Source of the DNA: a virus
Strand: one strand, 5' to 3'
Virus record (IMG/VR): IMGVR_UViG_3300025141_000607
Location: 1 to 27,084 of that record
Length of the DNA: 27,084 bases
Part shown: piece after piece, positions 7,994-20,026 of the stretch
Layout: each line of letters begins with the position of its first letter
Numbering within the stretch: the first letter of the stretch is position 1
Program-made: the position numbers and the translations under genes
Notes under the pieces: generated by a model
Database searches by the model: none
The model's input: only the letters and a program-made list of their open reading frames with translations
What the model was told of the DNA's origin: nothing

Positions 7994-8496
7994 CAGCGCA
8001 ATTGAATGTTTCCAGTAGTTGGCAAGCCTCCAACCAGGGCACGATGGAGCGTTCGGGTTGGTACGTCTCCGGTGACTGCATCCAAAACGCTGGATAATTC
8101 CACTGTCAACTGGGTGTCGTTCCAGCCGCCGGCAGTGCTAGACCCCGTGTACGTCAGAAGCGTTGTTGTAACTGCTCGTGTATCTGGATTCAAGATGTTG
8201 ACATCTACCTCTCCGACGTAAGGCAGGCGCCCGTAATTACTTGCAGTGTCGACCCCTCCTCTTAAAGCCTCGTCTAAATAACCACGAGAAAGAGCGGTGT
8301 TGGGAAAGACCAGTGTTGCCGGCGAAAGATCCCCCTGCCGGCTTGTACTCATGCCACTAAACCCGAACGGGACAAACGAATAATCAACCCCCTGATGGGT
8401 GACGTTTTCACTTAGATAGAAGTTCTGGAAAGCGTGAGCCAATCCCCCGGCGTCGTTGTAAAACCGTAAATAATGGCCAATGCTTAGGGTTGTCAT
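7993..8496 (-). CDS. gpL-like minor tail protein
   Basis: A 167-residue protein directly after the tape measure gene, overlapping it by four bases (ATGA, 8493-8496). It contains GFSGMSTSRQGDLSPATLVF and ends VPTRTLHRALVGGLP followed by TTGNIQLR. The order tape measure, this protein, NlpC-like, J-like matches the lambda H-(M)-L-K-J arrangement. The length and beta-rich pattern fit small distal tail proteins (gpL or DUF1833-like families). It probably sits in the ring below the tube. The exact family was not verified. Confidence 0.65.
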   Translation of the reverse strand: MTTLSIGHYLRFYNDAGGLAHAFQNFYLSENVTHQGVDYSFVPFGFSGMSTSRQGDLSPATLVFPNTALSRGYLDEALRGGVDTASNYGRLPYVGEVDVNILNPDTRAVTTTLLTYTGSSTAGGWNDTQLTVELSSVLDAVTGDVPTRTLHRALVGGLPTTGNIQLR

Positions 8497-10742
8497 ACTC
8501 CCACCTTCCTACGAGTCGAAGGGCTATTCCGCAGTCTGCCCAGAGCCATGGCAGACCCCATCTGGCCTCCCTGTTTTGCTGCTTTGGCCATACCAACTTG
8601 GAACTGTTCCTCAGTGACGAAGTTCATTCCGTTGATTTGAGTCACGTTGTAATTGACATCAACGGATCCGCCACCACCACCTCCAGCGGATTGACTCGAA
8701 CCCTCAGATCCAGATGGAATTACATCCTCTCCTCTAGCGCCTGAGTTCCAGCGATCCATTGCACCACCCATCTTGGAGGCTGGGATCACGTACTCGGACT
8801 GGCCACCCTCACCAACAATTGCGTTAGTTGGGCCTGAGACGTAGCCGCCATCGGCCATCTTCTTAGCCAAACCACTTCCCATTGAGAAGCCAGAGCTAAG
8901 GCCCTCGTCTGCGGTGATACCACCACCGCCACCAAAGGCGCCGCTCAGAACGCCAAGCGCTTTCAAGATCAACGCCTTGGCGATCATCTGGGTCGCCATA
9001 TCAATGAACGCCTTTCCAATATTTGCGAACATCTCAGAGAACGCCTCTTGTGCTGTTTTCGTTCCGGTGATTAATCCCGTTACAGCAGAACTCATGGAGC
9101 TTGCCAGTTCTGTTTCAACTGTCTGAGCAAGCGAAACGATCATAGACTCCGTATCTTTTAGCTCTGCTTCTAGCTGATCCATATAGTTTTCAACTGGCCC
9201 CTTTGCATCTTCCAATGCCTTCTTTCTGGCCTCTTCTTTCTTCCTTGCCTCTTCGGCTTCCTTGCCCTTTTTCTTCGCTAACGCATCCGCTAACGCATTC
9301 TCCTTGATGGCAGTATTCAAGCCCTCAAGCTTCGCTCTGGTTATTTCGTCTTCGATTCCTTTTAACTTTTCTCTGATGTCTGCATGTCTGAATTGAATCT
9401 TTAACGTCTCCTTGTCATAGTCCGTCAGCGAAGTCTTTAATTTGAACTCCCTCTCTAGAGAGGTTGTCATTGATTTGATTAGCCGCTCTTGCTTCTCTTT
9501 TTCAGCCGTCCGTGCCTTCTCAGCCGCCGCCGCCCCGCCGCCTACTCCTCCGACCGGTGGAGGTGATGTCAGGGGCTTGTCTTTTGTCTCAGGTGTTTTC
9601 TGATCGTAAGGAGACCACCCGCCAGCCTTCTTGAATAGCTCCTTTTCTTGTGAGGCGTAATCATTGCCGAAGTTGCGCTGGCCAGCAAACTTATCGCCGA
9701 TCCAGTTCATGGCGTTACGCATTTGCCCCAGCGTCTGGAGCATGACGCCCAGCCCTGGAATGGCATTAATGATTGCGTTATGGAAAGAATCAATACCAAT
9801 AGACGCATGCTCGGAACCGAGACCAACCCCGTTAAATACTCGGCTCAGCCCGTCCAAGAAATGATCAGCCTCTTCTACAACCTTGTTAGCTTCACTTATT
9901 GATGAGGTGAACTTATCTATCAGACCTATCAGAGGTTTCATTAATGCCTCTGATCCTGCTAAGGCTTCTTGAAGATCTCTAAATTCCTCCCCCAAACTAT
10001 CTAACGCCCCGGCTAAACCCGCATCTCCTGCCGCCTCAGCCGCTCCGCCATATTGCTTCTCTATTTCGGTAAGGATTAAATTCTGTGCTTCCAGCATTCG
10101 CCCAGATTCTTGCAACGTTTTTATCTGCTCTTTCTGTTGGTCGGTAAATACCGTTCCACTTCTTGCCAGATCAGTAACCCGCCGTGCTGGATCTTCTAAC
10201 GCTTTAGACAATTGCATCATCGCCCCGCGAAGATCCTGCCCCGTAATAGTCGCCACATCTGCCGCAGCCTTCGCCACTCTCCCGTATGAATCAACCCCAA
10301 TTCGCTGAAATGAGGTCATCAACTGGAAAGCTCTGGTGAAGTCTTCCTGATCAAATAGCGTTGACTTGCCAAGCTTGTCGGCAGCGTTAACCAGTCCCTC
10401 AAGATCCGCCGCCGTGCCCCCTAGGTTCTTGAGTCCATTCGTTAGCTGCGCCAGCAAAACTTCCCTTTCACTTGCTACCTGCAAGCTCTTGTTAAACAAC
10501 GACACCGCAGCCGTCAAAGTAACAAGAGGCAAAATTGCGCTCTTTAACGCGGCACCAAAACCATTAACGCCGGCCTGGGCAGAAGTAGCAGCCCGCCCCG
10601 TCTGCTTGATTGCGTTTGATGCCTTAGGCATGCTGCCCTTGACTCTGCTCGCCGCAGCATCAGTCTTGTTTAATGACTGCTGAAATTGATCTAGCTTTCG
10701 CGTAGGCGCTTGCAGCTTTAGAACCAGGGTCTCTACAGCCAA
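8493..10742 (-). CDS. Tail tape measure protein
   Basis: A 749-residue protein in the tape measure position. The N-terminal part is helical and Ala/Lys rich, followed by a hydrophobic stretch near residues 66-85 (SAILPLVTLTAAVSLF). A section FTRAFQLMTSFQRIGV then ITGQDLRGAMMQLSKAL matches the conserved prophage tail-length region. Residues about 410-520 are strongly charged coiled coil (EKARTAEKEKQERLIK and EEARKKEEARKKALE). The C-terminal part is Gly rich with YVSGPTNAIVGEGGQSEYV, the usual tape measure ending. At about 1.5 angstrom per residue this predicts a tail near 110 nm. The only in-frame start is a TTG at 10742. AAGGA lies one base before it, too close for normal use, so start efficiency may be low or coupled to the upstream frameshift product. 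Confidence 0.9.
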   Translation of the reverse strand: MAVETLVLKLQAPTRKLDQFQQSLNKTDAAASRVKGSMPKASNAIKQTGRAATSAQAGVNGFGAALKSAILPLVTLTAAVSLFNKSLQVASEREVLLAQLTNGLKNLGGTAADLEGLVNAADKLGKSTLFDQEDFTRAFQLMTSFQRIGVDSYGRVAKAAADVATITGQDLRGAMMQLSKALEDPARRVTDLARSGTVFTDQQKEQIKTLQESGRMLEAQNLILTEIEKQYGGAAEAAGDAGLAGALDSLGEEFRDLQEALAGSEALMKPLIGLIDKFTSSISEANKVVEEADHFLDGLSRVFNGVGLGSEHASIGIDSFHNAIINAIPGLGVMLQTLGQMRNAMNWIGDKFAGQRNFGNDYASQEKELFKKAGGWSPYDQKTPETKDKPLTSPPPVGGVGGGAAAAEKARTAEKEKQERLIKSMTTSLEREFKLKTSLTDYDKETLKIQFRHADIREKLKGIEDEITRAKLEGLNTAIKENALADALAKKKGKEAEEARKKEEARKKALEDAKGPVENYMDQLEAELKDTESMIVSLAQTVETELASSMSSAVTGLITGTKTAQEAFSEMFANIGKAFIDMATQMIAKALILKALGVLSGAFGGGGGITADEGLSSGFSMGSGLAKKMADGGYVSGPTNAIVGEGGQSEYVIPASKMGGAMDRWNSGARGEDVIPSGSEGSSQSAGGGGGGSVDVNYNVTQINGMNFVTEEQFQVGMAKAAKQGGQMGSAMALGRLRNSPSTRRKVGV

Positions 10743-10769: not shown

Positions 10770-10934
10770 CTATCGCCGCCGCTTGGCAGCATTCATCGAC
10801 TTCTCGCGCTCTTGATTCTGCAGCTCAAAAAACACCAGCCACAAATGCACCTCTTCATACGTCATCTCTCGGCGGAGCTGGCCAAGCGTTAACCCCAGCT
10901 CCTTAGCAACAACTAGCTCAGCTACCAGCCCGTT
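10770..10934 (-). CDS. Tail chaperone T-extension, read after a frameshift
   Basis: This frame has no start codon. It opens just downstream of a TGA and overlaps the end of the 130-residue chaperone gene. It reads GLVAELVVAKELGLTLGQL, then REMTYEEVHLWLVFFELQ, and ends in a basic NAAKRRR. This is the recognisable T domain of gpGT-type tail assembly chaperones (Leu-rich helix, then EE..LW..FFEL). It must be made by a shift from the upstream frame into the -2 (equivalently +1) register. Its stop at 10770 lies 28 bases before the tape measure start, exactly where lambda-type T frames end. The fusion would be about 180 residues. The product was built from the sequence and is too short to appear as a long open frame. 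Confidence 0.8.
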   Translation of the reverse strand, partial: NGLVAELVVAKELGLTLGQLRREMTYEEVHLWLVFFELQNQEREKSMNAAKRRR

Positions 10935-18939: not shown

Positions 18940-19158
18940 CTAGCGTTGCTTAGGCGTATTGCTGCTTACGCCAGTTAACAACGCAAGCGTCGTGCTGATC
19001 ATTACTGCAAAGGTGGTGTCATAACGCTGGCCTAGCTCTGGGCAAGCTTTTAACCCGCCGTGTGATCCGCACTGCCAGACGCCCCAACTGAAAAGGACAA
19101 TCTGGCTAGCGAAAACAGAGCCAAGCAGATAGAGCAAAAAACGCTCTCTAGCATTCAC
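18940..19158 (-). CDS. Two-helix small membrane protein, holin candidate
   Basis: A 72-residue protein. A charged start (MNARER) is followed by a first hydrophobic helix (FLLYLLGSVFASQIVLFSW). A Cys-containing loop (CGSHGGLKACPELGQRYDT) leads to a second helix (FAVMISTTLALLTGV) and a basic tail. The size and two-helix topology are those of small holins, but no endolysin gene is visible nearby, so the role is unproven. The two loop Cys could form a disulphide outside the cytoplasm. It overlaps the preceding gene by four bases and is followed by a strong terminator. Confidence 0.65.
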   Translation of the reverse strand: MNARERFLLYLLGSVFASQIVLFSWGVWQCGSHGGLKACPELGQRYDTTFAVMISTTLALLTGVSSNTPKQR

Positions 19159-19358
19159 TTCTTTTTGCGGGCCTTCCCTTGTGCTGAAGACTTATTGCCT
19201 GAGTAAGCCTTACGGCCTGCAGCCTTTTCAGTTCCCTTTGACTCATCACGGCGAGACTTGAGGCTCTGTGACTTCTTGCCGTTGCGAGCACCAAGGCTTT
19301 CGTTTAGCCGTGAATTAAAACCTTGCTTTTTCTTTGGAGCCATTGAGAAGAGGCGCAA
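19155..19358 (-). CDS. Small highly basic protein
   Basis: A protein of 67 residues from a TTG at 19358, which has GGAGG eight bases upstream, or 62 residues from the ATG at 19343 without a ribosome binding site. It contains FNSRLNESLGARNGKKSQSL, then KSRRDESKGTEKAAGRKAY and ends KARKKK. It is Lys/Arg/Ser rich and disordered. From memory this pattern (RLNESLG.RNG, SLKSRRDESKG) recurs next to head genes of marine cyanophages. It may bind DNA or be packaged. The stop overlaps the membrane protein start (ATGA). Confidence 0.68.
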   Translation of the reverse strand: MRLFSMAPKKKQGFNSRLNESLGARNGKKSQSLKSRRDESKGTEKAAGRKAYSGNKSSAQGKARKKK

Positions 19359-19374: not shown

Positions 19375-19626
19375 TTAGTCCCGTCTCCATGGTCCCTTGA
19401 TGCCCATAGCGCCCCCTAATGGCCCATCGCCTGGCTCATCAATATGAATAGGGCCACGGGTTGGGTCAAGCCGTTCCATCTCCTTTGCTGCCTCCTCTAC
19501 CTCTCTATCCAGCTTGCGACCGAGAGAGGTTCTGAACTTCTGGGCCGCGGCATATCGCTGCAACTCATCCAACGCGCTAACGCTTGAATAGGTCCATGAG
19601 TATCTAGCGCGGGGTTGCTCTAGCCC
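19375..19626 (-). CDS. Downstream frame of a likely -1 frameshift fusion
   Basis: This frame is open far upstream of its first start codon (TTG at 19572, no ribosome binding site). It continues sensibly back to a slippery CCCAAAG in the preceding gene. Read from the slip it gives GLEQPRARYSWTYSSVSA, then LDELQRYAAAQKFRTSLGRK, a charged helix (LDREVEEAAKEMERLD), and a Gly/Pro-rich end (IDEPGDGPLGGAMG). Joined to the 49-residue membrane protein it makes a 131-residue membrane-anchored protein. If the fusion is not made, a 65-residue protein from the TTG is the alternative. I do not recognise the family. Confidence 0.6.
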   Translation of the reverse strand, partial: GLEQPRARYSWTYSSVSALDELQRYAAAQKFRTSLGRKLDREVEEAAKEMERLDPTRGPIHIDEPGDGPLGGAMGIKGPWRRD

Positions 19627-19632
19627 TTTGGG
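19573..19632 (-). promoter_or_regulatory. Candidate -1 frameshift signal: CCCAAAG heptamer plus downstream stem
   Basis: In the frame of the 49-residue gene the codons CTC CCA AAG GGC TAG contain C-CCA-AAG (19632-19626), a textbook X-XXY-YYZ site just before the stop. Fourteen bases downstream, CGCGCTA (19611-19605) pairs perfectly with TAGCGCG (19579-19573). The spacer is longer than the usual five to nine bases, but the slip heptamer is canonical. Confidence 0.6.
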
Positions 19633-19769
19633 AGTTTCTTTGGCTTTAGCGCCATCAAGGCTTGGAACAAAAGCTGAACAACTGAATTGGATTTCAGCTT
19701 GGACATCCCCACGATTTCAGATGCACCAGTCACCAGGATCCAGAACCAAGGCTCTTGCAAAAATTCCAT
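19620..19769 (-). CDS. Small membrane protein (49 residues)
   Basis: Found by hand translation. The ATG at 19769 lies two bases after the stop of the 84-residue gene (TAACGATG). It encodes MEFLQEPWFWILVTGASEIV, then GMSKLKSNSVVQLLFQALMA and LKPKKLPKG. There is one hydrophobic N-terminal helix, an LK.NS turn and a second amphipathic helix. From memory this type (LEFLQ.PW.W, SE, LK.NS..QL..QAL) is common in marine phage structural regions. The function is unknown. The final codons carry a slippery heptamer leading into the next frame. Confidence 0.72.
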   Translation of the reverse strand: MEFLQEPWFWILVTGASEIVGMSKLKSNSVVQLLFQALMALKPKKLPKG

Positions 19770-19771
19770 CG

Positions 19772-20026
19772 TTAGCGATGCGCAGGGATATGAACTGAGT
19801 CTACGACTTTGAAAGTGGTCTCAAATACTATCGGCAGCAAGATTGAAGCGACCAAGGCGATAACCAAAACCTGAGCCATCCGACGTTCTAAAGCGCTAAT
19901 CCTCTGGAAGATTTCGCGGCTGAGAGTCGTTAAACGCTCCTCTTCCTTTCCGACTTCAGAGGTAATCATGTCAACCTTGGTTTTTACCTCTGCAAGCTCT
20001 TTCGTAATTTGATAATCTTCGTTCAT
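19772..20026 (-). CDS. Coiled coil plus single C-terminal membrane helix (XhlA-like)
   Basis: An 84-residue protein. Residues 1-48 form an amphipathic coiled coil (ITKELAEVKTKVDMITSEV and LTTLSREIFQRISALERRM). Residues 51-70 are a membrane helix (QVLVIALVASILLPIVFET), ending in a short polar tail. The layout resembles haemolysin XhlA-type phage proteins that work with holins, but sequence identity was not checked. It is followed two bases later by the 49-residue membrane protein. Confidence 0.65.
   Translation of the reverse strand: MNEDYQITKELAEVKTKVDMITSEVGKEEERLTTLSREIFQRISALERRMAQVLVIALVASILLPIVFETTFKVVDSVHIPAHR

Follow-up and report, generated by a model that had tools for sequence, protein, structure and literature searches.

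Does the 49-codon gene lying on the minus strand between the portal and head genes of this virus encode a single small membrane protein, or does a ribosomal frameshift at its very end give rise to two? The window, that is, the whole stretch of DNA analyzed here, is a virus record of 27,084 bases. Its minus-strand genes run from a DNA methylase through the terminase, the portal, a collagen-like fibre, and an 84-aa coil/transmembrane (TM) protein to the locus in question, and continue past it through head morphogenesis, scaffold, major capsid, connectors, and tail. The position between portal and head genes given in a preliminary description is thus correct for the window, with the addition that the collagen-like fibre-type gene and the 84-aa gene also lie there. 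The 49-codon ORF begins at an ATG (19769) situated 2 nt past the stop of the 84-aa gene (TAACGATG), without a clear ribosome binding site (RBS) of its own, and ends with the codons CTC CCA AAG GGC TAG (stop at 19622–19620). Coordinates of the features are collected in Table 1.

Table 1. Features at and around the predicted frameshift locus of the window
Feature	Position	Strand	Remark
Short product, 49-aa membrane protein, phrog_22542	19620..19769	-	ORF scan and profile match
Slippery heptamer C CCA AAG (X XXY YYZ)	19626..19632	-	3 nt ahead of the TAG stop
-1 frame extension, 83 codons and TAA, GLEQPRARYSWTYSSVSALDELQRY...GPWRRD	19375..19626	-	
Predicted frameshift fusion, 131 aa	19375..19769	-	
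84-aa protein gene, coiled-coil and C-terminal TM	19772..20026	-	directly upstream of the 49-aa ORF
Lys-rich small protein gene, 3' of the extension in the window's clade, cluster c21	19155..19343	-	
72-aa protein, two hydrophobic stretches, cluster c15, kept in the window's clade	18940..19158	-	
7-bp stem from the preliminary description	19573..19611	-	present; not conserved, not above chance

The 49-aa protein clearly belongs to phrog_22542 (residues 1–45, E=1.8e-20 by profile match), a family without known function whose 49-position profile covers the short form only. Its sequence is hydrophobic, with two short predicted helices linked by SKLKS, and AlphaFold2 places these at residues 7–22 and 28–41 (pLDDT 74). 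In many relatives, too, the small TM gene follows a small coil/TM gene resembling the 84-aa gene; when a neighboring coil protein was considered as XhlA-like, its score fell under the cut-off.

The preliminary description had proposed that a -1 frameshift fuses the membrane protein to a charged downstream frame, and its account of the site withstands inspection. C CCA AAG is phased as X_XXY_YYZ requires, and no stop interrupts the -1 frame across it, from 19716 to a TAA at 19377–19375. When that frame was examined for ATG, GTG, and TTG codons, the first ATG was found at 19479, preceded only by TTG codons at 19572 and 19563 that carry no RBS, in keeping with the claimed lack of an initiation site. 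A slip at the heptamer would join 48 residues to 83, giving the 131-residue product originally calculated. One start codon would thereby yield two proteins: most ribosomes would terminate after the 49-aa hydrophobic, hairpin-like protein, while those slipping by -1 at the end of the gene would produce the 131-aa form with an 83-aa charged, helical, and probably cytoplasmic tail. Neither Pfam nor NCBIfam contains a match to the window's extension, PHROGs contains no credible one, and a profile search against the PDB returned weak matches only; it would thus constitute a protein family not in the databases searched. One match to phrog_3316 (E=0.003) was set aside as chance, as it was absent from six cultured isolates and from AP013546 and matched unrelated control genomes. 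AlphaFold2 models the extension as one long helix with low confidence (pLDDT 63).

To place the locus among its relatives, viral loci were gathered with a scan for the 49-aa protein (80), a profile (a further 80), and the S-CBS1 extension as seed (80 more), and dereplication at 95% left a non-redundant set of 144 viral loci that encode the small protein. A slippery heptamer lies within 6 nt of the stop in 116 of these (AAAAAAG in 104, CCCAAAG and GGGAAAG in 5 each, AAAAAAA and AAAAAAC in 1 each), so that the heptamer sought among homologues is indeed kept at the same place as CCCAAAG, AAAAAAG, or GGGAAAG. Scoring an extension profile against the three downstream frames at every locus showed that 110 of the 144 loci combine the heptamer with a homologous -1 extension and that 27 lack both; the remaining 7 are mixed, six having a heptamer without recognizable extension and one an extension without canonical heptamer. 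In none of the 144 loci was the extension found in any frame other than -1. The co-occurrence of heptamer and extension across the 144 loci exceeds chance (Fisher p ~2e-22, with shared ancestry ignored). Searches seeded with the extension only likewise recovered, wherever it was readable, a 0-frame TM gene ending in A AAA AAG, and once in G GGA AAG.

The exceptions are few. Among the heptamer-only loci, L028 and L161 have no extension and L013, L044, and L127 short, weak ones, while L004 is disrupted after about 15 extension residues; at 2540–2900 of that contig, the heptamer and these first residues are kept and the remainder is replaced, as if by insertion or recombination. L018 has the extension and reads GTA AAG AAG at the site, with no canonical heptamer; this sequence, also found in L019, is possibly a weaker A AAG-type site. 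In the extension-less relatives L006, L027, L158, and AP013546, the heptamer is missing as well, the last being an uncultured Autographiviridae genome with the short protein and neither site nor extension. Most extension-less relatives encode a similar Lys-containing end without a slippery site.

The phages with the locus comprise more than 100 relatives infecting or probably infecting cyanobacteria; in bacterial genomes, one binned contig only was found, with an A AAA AAG site. Site and extension occur together in six cultured Synechococcus phages (S-CBS1, S-CBS3, KBS-S-2A, S-EIVl, S-B28, and 7B11-B) that include siphoviruses and Autographiviridae. The predicted frameshift site is conserved in siphovirus- and podovirus-like Synechococcus phages and many uncultured relatives. 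The annotations of cultured phages examined missed or misplaced what would be the second half of the gene: in S-CBS1 and S-CBS3, the extension is a separate, truncated hypothetical gene (gp23 and gp22, respectively), and in KBS-S-2A it is mostly unannotated.

Substitution patterns indicate purifying selection on the extension, which in the tested clade acts from directly after the junction. In the -1 frame, the median omega (dN/dS) is 0.22 over 967 pairs, and the window and its relative L003 differ in the extension by a dS of 0.87 and a dN of 0.14. For codons 3–20 past the junction in a clade of 55 loci, pN/pS is 0.30 in the -1 frame, whereas the two other frames give 1.44 and 1.63. The preliminary description had set out the case of a frame not conserved between the heptamer and the first candidate starts; the opposite was found, the frame being kept from the heptamer on, including the stretch ahead of most candidate starts. 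Taken with the site and its co-occurrence with the extension, this selection supports the original proposal, and a programmed -1 frameshift most probably yields a short and a long membrane protein, both products and the translational event being predicted from sequence.

What might two such forms do? An endolysin gene lies within 1 kb downstream on the same strand in 90 of the 113 extension-bearing loci, which suggests that the membrane protein belongs to a lysis cassette and is made in two forms. The downstream genes match phage lysozyme, glucosaminidase, C39 peptidase, and endolysin (chitinase/GH19-like) families, and some extension-less relatives also stand directly before an endolysin (L049, L082, and L158). 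The small protein has predicted membrane helices, as holins do, and matched no holin family model; a two-helix membrane protein preceding an endolysin would most simply be of holin type, and the two forms are perhaps a holin and its regulator. With moderate confidence, the small protein can be placed in the lysis cassette as a holin-type protein whose minority long form would modulate the assembly or timing of the short one. A more specific version is tentative: the short form may make the membrane lesion, with the frameshifted long form acting as a built-in antiholin or endolysin adaptor at a ratio set by frameshifting. For the long form, regulation of the short form appears to be the first choice, followed by an endolysin tether and by translational coupling.

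Coupling would mean that frameshifting mainly brings ribosomes to the endolysin start, where slipped ribosomes end, tying endolysin synthesis to the frameshift rate. The geometry fits, as the extension stop overlaps the endolysin start by 4–32 nt in all but one locus where the start could be placed, with an ATGA-type junction in S-CBS3; however, the extension is selected as a protein and is kept in clades where no adjacent endolysin was found, making this an unlikely main purpose. Such an endolysin was not found in the window's own clade, and the extension-bearing loci from all the clades concerned are the window, L003, L005, L085, L021, L029, L033, and L042. The same clades speak against the long form as a membrane tether or adaptor whose cytoplasmic tail binds the neighboring endolysin, a role that we likewise consider doubtful. 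In its favor, most neighboring endolysins have a common N-terminal domain, the proposed binding partner, despite their different catalytic domains. Furthermore, L243 (2001–2966) has lost the stop codon of the extension, and its -1 frame continues into a GH19-like endolysin; ribosomes slipping there would synthesize an endolysin of about 370 residues anchored in the membrane. This single uncultured contig is compatible with a tether, although the fusion may be accidental or the result of a misassembly. The N-terminal domain also occurs as a stand-alone gene of about 60 aa in L029, L030, and L031 (near 2120–2305), with a match to phrog_10051. In the window, L003, L005, L006, and L027, the locus is accompanied by the 72-aa protein of Table 1, which contains conserved Cys residues, matches no family, and is another holin-like or lysis candidate.

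The extension could alternatively be an independent gene, translated from a non-ATG start or by reinitiation, with the heptamer merely encoding Lys-Lys. Some GTG, TTG, or ATG does lie inside the extension at many loci, and the S-CBS1 and S-CBS3 annotations adopt this reading, but the candidate starts fall at unconserved positions and are absent from the first 40 codons in 28 of 112 loci. No locus of the 112 has a -1-frame ATG between the upstream stop and the heptamer, both an ATG and an SD-like start within the first 40 extension codons were found in only two, and the extension lacks any ATG in 26 and any ATG, GTG, or TTG in 5. These missing ATGs, together with the pN/pS constraint ahead of many candidate starts, make independent initiation very unlikely. 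The codon choice at the heptamer is also far from synonymous expectation: the codon holding X ends in A at 103 of 112 loci, versus 28 expected from synonymous usage, the other nine being CCG or CTC and matching X in GGGAAAG or CCCAAAG. This holds while the amino acid encoded by that codon varies (Ala, Gly, Pro, Ser, Glu, Gln, Lys, Val, Thr, and Ile). The heptamer changes by lineage yet remains slippery, as in L237, which has GGGAAAG where its nearest relatives, with extensions up to 93% identical, have AAAAAAG. Transcriptional slippage on an A tract or a homopolymer sequencing error, for which AAAAAAG offers a short A run, is the least probable explanation, since the same frame relation exists at CCCAAAG and GGGAAAG without a long homopolymer and recurs in more than 100 separate contigs and six isolates.

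Stimulatory elements, as a 3' structure or an upstream Shine–Dalgarno (SD) sequence, are common at -1 sites and are not required. The locus has an in-frame X XXY YYZ heptamer before the stop and an open, selected -1 frame without an initiation site of its own; a stimulator of either kind was not found. The perfect seven-base stem proposed earlier does exist as a pairing (CGCGCTA at 19611–19605 with TAGCGCG at 19579–19573), but it does not hold up as a stimulator: the region folds no better than shuffled sequences (z -0.22), and in a comparison of the window with its three closest relatives only 57% of base-pair cells hold, with no compensatory change. Over the 60 nt downstream of the site in 112 loci, the mean z is -0.96 versus -0.91 in control windows 100 nt further on, and no convincing consensus stimulatory fold emerged from a clade of 56 loci. 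Strong hairpins were seen in a few loci (L007, L037, and L198) and may be local features. A search for an upstream SD-like stimulator found none. Stimulators can also be missing from phage frameshift sites described in the literature (PMC5009743, PMC3091744).

Frameshifting in dsDNA phages has been described for tail chaperones and for coat and tail proteins (PMC5009743, PMC10885494, PMC3711429). Like the coat genes of T7 and T3 and the capsid or tail-protein genes of Lactobacillus phage A2 and Listeria phage PSA, the present locus would generate two C termini from one start by frameshifting (PMC5009743); those products belong to the virion and carry Ig-like or other extensions, whereas here a small membrane protein would gain an unrelated charged, helical tail. 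Should the lysis role be right, the locus would also resemble the lambda holin/antiholin pair in that translation sets the ratio between two forms of one small membrane protein encoded in a lysis cassette. The lambda antiholin arises from a start two codons upstream (PMC3091744), and start choice therefore gives the two lambda forms different N termini, in contrast to the long C-terminal tail added here by the predicted -1 frameshift. Frameshifting is tied to the expression of a lysis gene in MS2 as well, where it occurs in the coat gene (PMC10885494); MS2 is, however, an RNA phage in which ribosomes that shift frame stop making coat protein near the lysis start, and no conserved fusion results (PMC10885494).

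A literature search on frameshifting with holins, antiholins, lysis cassettes, or cyanophages, with most subscription journals outside its reach, returned no earlier report; in a lactobacillus phage paper, a scan of the phage's two lysin genes had turned up no slippery site. While the class of mechanism is already known, its apparent conserved use in a small membrane-protein gene has not previously been reported in the literature searched. Should the locus indeed encode a lysis protein regulated in this way, it would provide the first known example of programmed frameshifting in the lysis cassette of a dsDNA phage, and the locus would offer a directly testable handle on the timing of cyanophage lysis.

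The closest resemblance in layout is to the tail assembly chaperones (lambda G/GT, P2 E/E+E'), where a small upstream ORF carries an X XXY YYZ heptamer close to its end and a minority of the product is extended at the C terminus, often with no RNA structure (PMC5009743, PMC3091744); the equivalent product is here a predicted one. Unlike the chaperones, the upstream ORF encodes a small hydrophobic membrane protein that has no chaperone family match and usually neighbors an endolysin. The locus is also, as first claimed, separate from the tail-chaperone position, lying between the portal and head morphogenesis genes rather than between the major tail protein and the tape measure. A tail-chaperone-like pair does occur in the window on the minus strand (11310–10770), between a tail protein and the tape measure gene (8493–10742). 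It consists of a 130-aa ORF (11310–10918) overlapped by a +1 (= -2) frame that ends at 10770 (...ARQLREKNGLVAELVVAKELGLTLGQLRREMTYEEVHLWLVFFELQNQEREKSMNAAKRRR); no canonical -1 heptamer was seen in the pair, so that a frameshift at this place would have to be +1 or -2.
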